DNA of 64,000 nt from Neolewinella litorea. Lineage in GTDB: Bacteria > Bacteroidota > Bacteroidia > Chitinophagales > Saprospiraceae. Under the pieces are notes generated by a model. It saw only the letters and a program-made list of their open reading frames with translations. It was not told the origin of the DNA and ran no database searches. Numbering within the stretch: the first letter of the stretch is position 1; every line of letters starts with the position of its first letter. Positions 28,873 through 29,887 of the stretch are shown in pieces. Position numbers and translations under genes: made by a program. The stretch spans positions 310,001 to 374,000 of the forward strand of contig NZ_SRSF01000004.1 of assembly GCF_004803465.1 (NCBI RefSeq), in the 5' to 3' direction.

Positions 28873-29735
28873 CAGACGATCATTTTGGCGATGGGCACGA
28901 TCAGGATACCCTCGGCCCCGGCGTCGCGGAGGCGGTCGATGATGTCCCAGAAACGGTCTTCGCTGATCACCGTATGCACGCTCGACCAGCCTTCCTCGGC
29001 CAGGGGCAGGACGGTAGGTGAGCGCATACCGGGCAGCATCTTGATCACTTCCTTGATGCTGCGGTTGGGCACGTTCATGAGGAGGTACTTCTGGTTGCGT
29101 GCGGCGAGTACCGATTTGATGCGGAAGACGAGTTTCTCCAGAATGGCGCGACGGTCGGCGTCGATGCGCGGACTGGCCGCGATGACGGCCTCGGATTGAA
29201 GGATGATGTCCTGCTCCTCCAGGCCATTCTTGAAGAGGGTACTGCCCGTCGAAACGAGGTCGCAGATGGCGTCGGCCAGTCCGATGTTCGGCGCAATTTC
29301 CACCGAGCCGCTGATCTCGTGAATCTCGGCCTCGATCCCCTTGTCTTTCAGAAACGCCCGCAGGCTGTTTGGGTAGCTGGTGGCGATGCGGCGGCCGTTG
29401 AGGCTCTCGGGGCCGGTGTAGCGGCTGCCGCGGGGGGTGGCCAGGCTGAGTCGGCACTTCGAGAAGCCCAGTTTCTGTACCACTTCGGCGTCCTTCTGCT
29501 TTTCGATCAGGGTATTCTCGCCGATGATGCCGATGTCGGCTACGCCGTCCTGGATGTACTGCGGGATATCGCTGTTGCGTAGGTAAAGGATCTCGGCGTT
29601 GAAGTTGCGGGCGGGTGCCTTGAGCTGGTCGCGGCCGTTGTCGATCTTGATGCCGCATTCCTTCAGGAGCTGGATGGACTCATCAAGGAGGCGGCCGGAT
29701 TTCTGTACGGCAATTCTGAGGGGGGGAGTAGACAT
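28872..29735 (-). CDS. hisG: ATP phosphoribosyltransferase, long form
   Basis: A 287-residue HisG that starts the pathway by joining ATP and PRPP. Markers are LRIAVQKSGRLL at the start, GVADIGIIGENTL, RIATSYPNSLRAFL and the PRPP loop DLVSTGSTLFKNGL. A C-terminal ACT-like regulatory domain (YLLMNVPNRSIKEVIKMLPG) makes it the long form, which is normally inhibited by histidine. The start at 29735 (MSTPPLRIAVQ) is chosen because the upstream open frame runs through the leader and the tRNA gene. It is preceded by the attenuator hairpin at 29758-29788, whose base is 22 bases upstream. Confidence 0.97.
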   Translation of the reverse strand: MSTPPLRIAVQKSGRLLDESIQLLKECGIKIDNGRDQLKAPARNFNAEILYLRNSDIPQYIQDGVADIGIIGENTLIEKQKDAEVVQKLGFSKCRLSLATPRGSRYTGPESLNGRRIATSYPNSLRAFLKDKGIEAEIHEISGSVEIAPNIGLADAICDLVSTGSTLFKNGLEEQDIILQSEAVIAASPRIDADRRAILEKLVFRIKSVLAARNQKYLLMNVPNRSIKEVIKMLPGMRSPTVLPLAEEGWSSVHTVISEDRFWDIIDRLRDAGAEGILIVPIAKMIV

Positions 29736-29757: not shown

Positions 29758-29788
29758 AGAGGCCCACCGGACTTTCCGGCGGACCTCT
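29758..29788 (-). terminator. Attenuator-like terminator hairpin of the his operon
   Basis: On the minus-strand RNA, 29788-29775 pairs with 29771-29758 as a 14-bp stem (two G-U pairs) around the loop AAG. It is followed by UUGUAUUUU. On the opposite strand the two wobble positions become mismatches, which indicates that the minus-strand transcript is the functional one. It stands between the His-rich leader peptide and hisG. Confidence 0.8.
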
Positions 29789-29841
29789 GAGCAATAGGTT
29801 TGGGGAGTATAAAGTTTACCGCACCACCTGGTCGCTCGCCG
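29777..29841 (-). promoter_or_regulatory. Candidate antiterminator pairing in the his leader
   Basis: RNA from 29841-29837 (CGGCG) and 29833-29830 (GACC) can pair with CGCCG (29781-29777) and GGUC (29785-29782), the 5' arm of the terminator, leaving a three-base bulge. This structure excludes the terminator. The left half lies inside the last third of the leader peptide, downstream of the His codons. Confidence 0.6.
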
Positions 29842-29887
29842 ACGGGCAAGGAAGACAAAGATGATGATGGTGAACTCCAAGGATCAT
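29816..29887 (-). CDS. Putative his operon leader peptide with four consecutive His codons
   Basis: A 23-codon frame, ATG at 29887 and TAA at 29818-29816, read as MILGVHHHHLCLPCPSASD then QVVR. Codons 6-9 are CAC CAT CAT CAT. It lies upstream of hisG and ends 27 bases before the terminator hairpin. In the classical attenuation model a ribosome waiting for charged tRNA-His on these codons leaves 29830-29841 free to form an antiterminator; a ribosome that reaches the stop covers it. The ATG lies one base past the tRNA-Phe 3' end. Too short for standard gene finding. The His run and its placement make chance unlikely, but translation is not shown. Confidence 0.75.
   Translation of the reverse strand: MILGVHHHHLCLPCPSASDQVVR

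Follow-up and report, generated by a model that had tools for sequence, protein, structure and literature searches.

A probable histidine attenuator adjoining the tRNA-Phe gene in Neolewinella litorea and its relatives

On the minus strand of the 64,000-nt stretch of the Neolewinella litorea genome analyzed here (the window), a promoter candidate, a tRNA-Phe (GAA) gene, a single C, the ATG of a histidine-rich leader frame, an intrinsic terminator, and hisG follow one another in that order. By comparison with relatives, the locus is very probably a histidine attenuator, and we consider it likely that this attenuator is ribosome mediated and carried on the tRNA-Phe transcript. Sequence and comparison give the parts, their order and conservation, and a −7 motif placed before the tRNA, with none in the interval that separates it from the leader. 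The joining of a tRNA-Phe gene to the his leader is the unusual part; among the matches listed, we found no tRNA gene joined to an amino acid attenuator in the open-licence literature. If this reading holds, one transcript would both provide an essential tRNA, apparently encoded by a single gene copy, and control an amino acid operon, which raises the questions of whether a tRNA gene's terminator can be regulated and whether tRNA processing can supply the start of a regulatory mRNA.

Layout of the locus and its known counterparts

The promoter candidate is of the Bacteroidota type, with TTG at 30033-30031, an interval of 21 nt, and TACCTTTG at 30009-30002 (−7 consensus TAnnTTTG, taken from PMC9723704 and PMC7366714). 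It is followed by tRNA-Phe at 29961-29889 (Rfam RF00005, 72.1 bits; 29961-29888 by ARAGORN), whose discriminator base is 29889 and whose CCA is not encoded, as judged by eye. After one further base (C 29888) begins a leader frame of 23 codons (29887-29816; MILGVHHHHLCLPCPSASDQVVR and a stop), with CAC CAT CAT CAT at codons 6 to 9 (29872-29861) as the putative sensor. A sequence-only reading of this DNA had described the same frame and His codons, which we confirm, as we do its 14-bp terminator hairpin (29788-29758; 9 G-C pairs, a 3-nt loop, and the tail UUGUAUUUU); the tRNA gene one base upstream of the ATG was absent from it. A terminator scan returned 4 sites per 4 kb versus 3.6 by chance, the other three being 5-pair stems only. 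The 155 nt from the leader ATG to the hisG ATG fold at −57.2 kcal/mol (z −4.6), a value equaled by none of 200 shuffles.

Downstream, also on the minus strand, lie hisG (29735-28872, with ATG at 29735; Pfam PF01634 and PF08029), hisD (28884-27583, start codon provisional; PF00815), a hisC-like aminotransferase gene (26991-25927; assigned by PF00155 and operon position), and hisB (25888-24746; HAD-type domain and IGP dehydratase; PF00475 and PF13242). A GyrI-like small-molecule-binding protein is encoded within the his operon (27569-27036, minus strand), between hisD and the hisC-like gene.

From these parts we infer cotranscription, a histidine response, cutting at the tRNA 3′ end, and leaderless initiation. 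RNA polymerase would start at the tRNA promoter (30033-30002) and transcribe tRNA-Phe and then the His leader. Under histidine shortage, a ribosome would stall on the His codons and break the protector (1:2) fold, which is predicted at 29878-29804 from GGAGU (29878-29874) with ACUCC (29808-29804), the His-codon region with GGUGGUG, and an inner CUUGCC/GGCGAG hairpin; 29837-29826 would then pair with 29799-29789 and, with this antiterminator formed, the terminator would be absent and the hisG operon transcribed. The predicted 5′ strand of the antiterminator (29841-29826) holds GAGCGA (29837-29832) and AGGU (29829-29826), together with CGGC (29841-29838), which may contribute extra pairs with the terminator arm; the predicted 3′ strand, ACCUAUUGCUC (ACCU-A-UUGCUC, 29799-29789), lies directly 5′ of the terminator. 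With histidine plentiful, a ribosome at the stop codon would cover the antiterminator strand, the terminator would form, and the terminated RNA would be a tRNA-Phe precursor with a tail. Cutting of the tRNA at its 3′ end would leave the AUG with a single preceding base and so yield a nearly leaderless leader mRNA (C-AUG).

In the his attenuator of enteric bacteria, a His-run leader peptide is combined with alternative helices and an intrinsic terminator, and hisG is the first gene. The window likewise shows a His-run leader, alternative helices (predicted), an intrinsic terminator, and hisG first, but differs in that its leader begins one base after a tRNA gene, with the promoter motif in front of that tRNA. 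Alignment to the enterobacterial model (Rfam RF00514, His_leader) spans positions 1-126 of 126 on the right strand; the score of 14.9 bits (E 6.6) is below the gathering cut-off of 49, so on that test the locus is not a member of the family. At cut-off, no Rfam his-leader model matched in the window or in 20 relative loci. The Bacteroid-trp motif (RF01692) is tied to trp genes and attenuation. It was described as a candidate cis-regulatory RNA in Bacteroidetes (PMC2864571), and the motif differs from the window's his leader.

Attenuation at hisG in this phylum is not wholly new, since it has at least been suggested in print: clues to leader-peptide attenuation before amino acid operons were reported in F. 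psychrophilum, as was a conserved hisG 5′ element without an Rfam match in the Flavobacteriaceae (PMC9723704). That hisG element shares phylum and gene with ours; the passages of the paper that deal with it do not state that it is an attenuator and give neither tRNA linkage nor structure. His-run leaders with terminator and antiterminator also precede his operons or hisS/hisZ paralogues in another phylum, the Firmicutes, where the passages describing them do not mention a tRNA gene (PMC9413887, PMC2965389).

His leaders and alternative folds in the Bacteroidota

We compared 203 hisG loci (204 less L211, dropped for lack of a match): 21 from the genus, the window's own included, 88 from the family, 13 from the order, 33 from the class, and 48 from the phylum, those of class and phylum being mostly the best HisG scorers rather than random draws. 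By a looser count (ATG, GTG, or TTG start, ≤500 nt upstream, at least 3 His per six codons), which the shuffle control does not cover, a His mini-ORF precedes hisG in 180 of the 203 loci: 19/21 in the genus, 80/88 in the family, 13/13 in the order, 33/33 in the class, and 35/48 in the phylum. One of the eight family loci without it (L087) has just 22 nt of upstream sequence. The stricter, ATG-only count within 250 nt (at least 3 His) gave 17/21, 73/87, 11/13, 29/33, and 26/48, compared with shuffle means of 0.1, 0.5, 0.1, 0.3, and 1.0 per set and reverse-strand counts of 0, 2, 0, 0, and 0; in the next 250 nt upstream it gave 1/20, 5/86, 1/13, 0/33, and 0/48. When at least 4 His in 6 codons were required, 15/21, 64/87, 7/13, 23/33, and 22/48 loci were counted, with shuffle means of ≤0.05 per set; the reverse strand yielded none. 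A terminator lies 3′ of the leader in 153 of the 180 loci (19/19, 79/80, 12/13, 24/33, and 19/35, genus to phylum). This comparison with relatives argues that leader and terminator are more than chance, and by it his attenuation looks common throughout the Bacteroidota. The proposal of the sequence-only reading that his attenuation operates here is supported in turn, both by these leaders, whose stricter count is far above shuffles, and by an antiterminator that is above chance at the group level.

Tandem His-rich mini-ORFs precede hisG in three loci (L006 of G035, L076 of G454, and L169 of G363), each mini-ORF followed by a terminator-like hairpin; these appear to be double his attenuators.

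In the terminator stems of 18 congeners, 94.0% of cells are paired versus 88.9% in shuffles (0/500 as high), and 18 cells are altered on both sides versus 7.4 (0/500); counted as pairs, 4 are altered on both sides, which is not above shuffles (3.1; 141/500). In the seven genomes in which tRNA and leader are joined (below), the antiterminator shows no double-sided change, and the same zero holds there for each of the three named folds, the protector among them. In those seven genomes the protector fold has 91.8% of its cells paired, and its RNAalifold version has 1 of 35 pairs altered on both sides.

The sequence-only reading had also taken 29841-29830 (CGGCGAGCGACC) as the partner of the terminator 5′ arm. 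The two can pair (CGGCG with CGCCG and GACC with GGUC), but not above chance: as sole antiterminator, this pairing reaches −15.4 kcal/mol, 21.5% of shuffles are as strong, and p is ≤0.05 in 0/19 congeners. Folding the window's RNA as it would emerge behind a stalled ribosome gave a different partner, with 29837-29826 pairing with 29799-29789. In the seven joined genomes, this pairing averages −15.1 kcal/mol versus −7.95 kcal/mol in shuffles (0/500), and its equivalent in 11 other congeners averages −9.29 versus −7.09 kcal/mol (0/500); these 18 congeners make up the energy test, which leaves out the divergent L016. Taken singly, 8/18 reach p ≤ 0.05, with the window at 0.068. In these models 29799-29789 is thus the better-supported antiterminator partner, rather than mainly the terminator arm, with the window alone borderline. 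Pairing of the leader strand with the terminator arm reaches p ≤ 0.05 in 26/79 family, 8/11 order, 12/23 class, and 10/19 phylum loci.

Strands swapped between the two clades gave −7.60 in one direction; in the other, the second clade's 5′ strands paired with the joined clade's 3′ strands at −13.74, more strongly than with their own 3′ strands (−9.29), so this exchange does not demonstrate clade-specific coevolution. Within the comparison sets, own antiterminator strands beat swapped ones on average in 12/19 genus (p = 0.0062), 55/79 family (p = 2.2e-6), 10/11 order (p = 0.0034), 21/23 class (p = 5.1e-6), and 13/19 phylum loci (p = 0.009).

We also modeled how likely the 5′ arm of the terminator is to pair upstream. 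For the window, this probability is 0.43 to 0.48 with a ribosome at the His codons, 0.29 with one at the stop, and 0.50 with no ribosome, so that for the window alone the modeled switch is weak; it stands out more clearly in the family means of 0.67, 0.16, and 0.28. The value for the His stall exceeds that for the stop by >0.2 in 13/19, 72/79, 11/12, 21/24, and 19/19 loci (genus to phylum), a contrast that is partly built into the model because a ribosome at the stop masks the antiterminator strand; it exceeds that for no ribosome by >0.2 in 7/19, 60/79, 6/12, 14/24, and 8/19.

One detail of the leader sets the window and one further joined genome, G016, apart: where the five others read TTGCCCCGTC, these two read TTGCCCGTC (29849-29841) and so lack one C, a difference that shifts the leader frame and puts the stop further downstream.

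The tRNA-Phe gene and the start of the leader mRNA

This tRNA-Phe is the only full-length match in the window's genome. It is likewise the single match at E ≤ 1e-9 in each of the 21 genus genomes and in 28/28 linked family genomes, where the best six candidates per genome were scored. On the same strand and ≤700 nt upstream of hisG, tRNA-Phe is found at 21/21 genus and 28/88 family loci and at 0/13 order, 0/33 class, and 0/48 phylum loci; no tRNA other than tRNA-Phe precedes hisG among the examined loci. It directly adjoins the leader ATG in seven genomes (G000, G001, G004, G007, G016, G017, and G020), which besides that of the window are Lewinella sp. IMCC34191, Lewinella sp. JB7, Neolewinella xylanilytica, N. 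marina, N. aquimaris, and Lewinella sp. IMCC34183. In the hisG tree, these seven and two relatives without a leader form one clade with support of 100/99.

tRNA processing may leave the leader mRNA leaderless. Excision of tRNAs makes the 5′ ends of leaderless mRNAs in mitochondria (tRNA punctuation), a system that is mitochondrial and has no attenuator. Initiation on a one-base leader would be unusual; leaderless mRNAs amount to 5.5% in F. psychrophilum (PMC9723704), and 5′ untranslated regions of <10 nt to about 3.7% in B. thetaiotaomicron (PMC7366714), according to the parts of those papers that treat mRNA 5′ ends. An RNase Z homologue in the genome scores 269.7 bits, under the curated cut-off of 292.95, which is exceeded in 9 of 14 control genomes. 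We put forward only tentatively, and at somewhat less than an even chance, the fuller reading in which the sole tRNA-Phe gene has come to head the his operon, the attenuator has replaced the tRNA's own terminator, and 3′ maturation of the tRNA makes the leaderless 5′ end of the leader. If that were true, leader translation and the attenuation decision would hinge on tRNA processing and on His-tRNA charging. The arrangement at this locus also raises the question of how ribosomes reach a leader quickly enough for attenuation in a phylum that makes little use of Shine-Dalgarno sequences.

Alternatively, the leader could be translated from unprocessed RNA, perhaps from an in-frame ATG inside the tRNA, and processing would then be irrelevant. 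Such an ATG exists at 29920-29918, 11 codons upstream and in frame without a stop, and in a plain fold of tRNA and leader RNA together, the tRNA opens and pairs with the leader, the acceptor stem having a probability of 0.00 to 0.39 in the seven joined genomes. This fold speaks against a neat division into two domains, although it comes from a model that takes neither tertiary contacts of the tRNA nor transcription order into account; a folded tRNA would conceal the upstream ATG, and family members with gaps of 11 to 26 nt begin the leader after the tRNA. On balance we regard translation from unprocessed RNA as unlikely.

Junctions of this kind elsewhere in the genome did not stand out: a pattern search for further tRNAs abutting an ATG gave 20 places (that of the window included) versus 46 in a reversed control, and at the 12 of the 20 that were scanned, a tRNA was absent at the match. 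Within the leader, 29825-29817 repeats 9 nt from the 5′ end of the tRNA (GGTGCGGTA); as a shared feature, this copy was rejected, being found in the window and G016 only (2/7 joined genomes).

Promoter position and origin of the linkage

A −7 box lies ≤80 nt upstream of tRNA-Phe at 39 of 49 linked loci, compared with about 3% by shuffles. Where the gap between tRNA and leader is <30 nt, the box is found upstream of the tRNA in 27/27 loci and inside the gap in 0/27, as far as the motif goes, which suggests that the attenuator probably ends the tRNA transcript too. With gaps of ≥30 nt, the box is upstream of the tRNA (≤80 nt) in 9/19 and in the gap in 2/19; at least one of these long-gap loci, L169, has a nearer His mini-ORF, 21 nt from the tRNA. 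It is the long gaps, 10/19 of which lack a −7 box ≤80 nt from the tRNA and 2/19 of which have one in the gap, that would favor a separate leader promoter that overlaps the tRNA gene, which would then be no more than a neighbor. We think this improbable for the window, whose gap is zero after C 29888 and thus falls among the short ones, and TTTG is absent from its tRNA (by eye).

tRNA-Phe genes not linked to his have the −7 box in 19 of 20 cases, and the 20th has no upstream sequence. Directly after the −7 box, CCGC (29998-29995 in the window) occurs in 26/39 tRNA-linked versus 3/90 unlinked his promoters, counts that come from related and not independent genomes. With CCGC in just 7/20 unlinked tRNA-Phe genes, we rejected it as a general mark of tRNA-Phe promoters. 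Most simply, a tRNA-Phe unit would have come to stand, promoter included, before a his leader, whose attenuator became its terminator. A HisG tree built from 122 rows (genus, family, and order) requires about 12 changes in linkage (bootstrap 11 to 13, at least 5 forced), so one origin and several are not distinguishable.

Is the hairpin just the terminator of tRNA-Phe, with a His run that arose by chance and hisG reached by readthrough or from an unseen promoter? By eye, many tRNA-Phe genes among the 20 unlinked ones have their own hairpin and T-run downstream, and two relatives have tRNA, terminator, and hisG without a leader. We nonetheless hold this explanation to be very unlikely: order and class loci have no tRNA and still all have the leader (13/13 and 33/33), with a terminator in 12 and 24 of them, and chance ORFs of such a kind number 0 to 1 per set. 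The two exceptions are L018 (G009, Neolewinella maritima) and L022 (G012, a metagenome-assembled genome), where tRNA-Phe, terminator, and hisG follow one another within 73 to 80 nt; they fall inside the joined clade of the hisG tree, with weak support for their exact position. These two close relatives keep tRNA-Phe and terminator without the leader, and they are natural deletion controls.

A terminator governed by a T-box, or by some other RNA that binds a tRNA or a metabolite, instead of by a ribosome would fit with a tRNA in cis but is highly improbable, as the tRNA is the sole Rfam match at gathering cut-off in the window, the T-box model is unmatched, and the tRNA is Phe while codons and genes are His.

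The sequence of the tRNA-Phe gene is identical in 16 of the 21 genus genomes, that of the window included. Inspection by eye shows an apparent C5-A68 mismatch in its acceptor stem (GGTGCGG/CCACACC).
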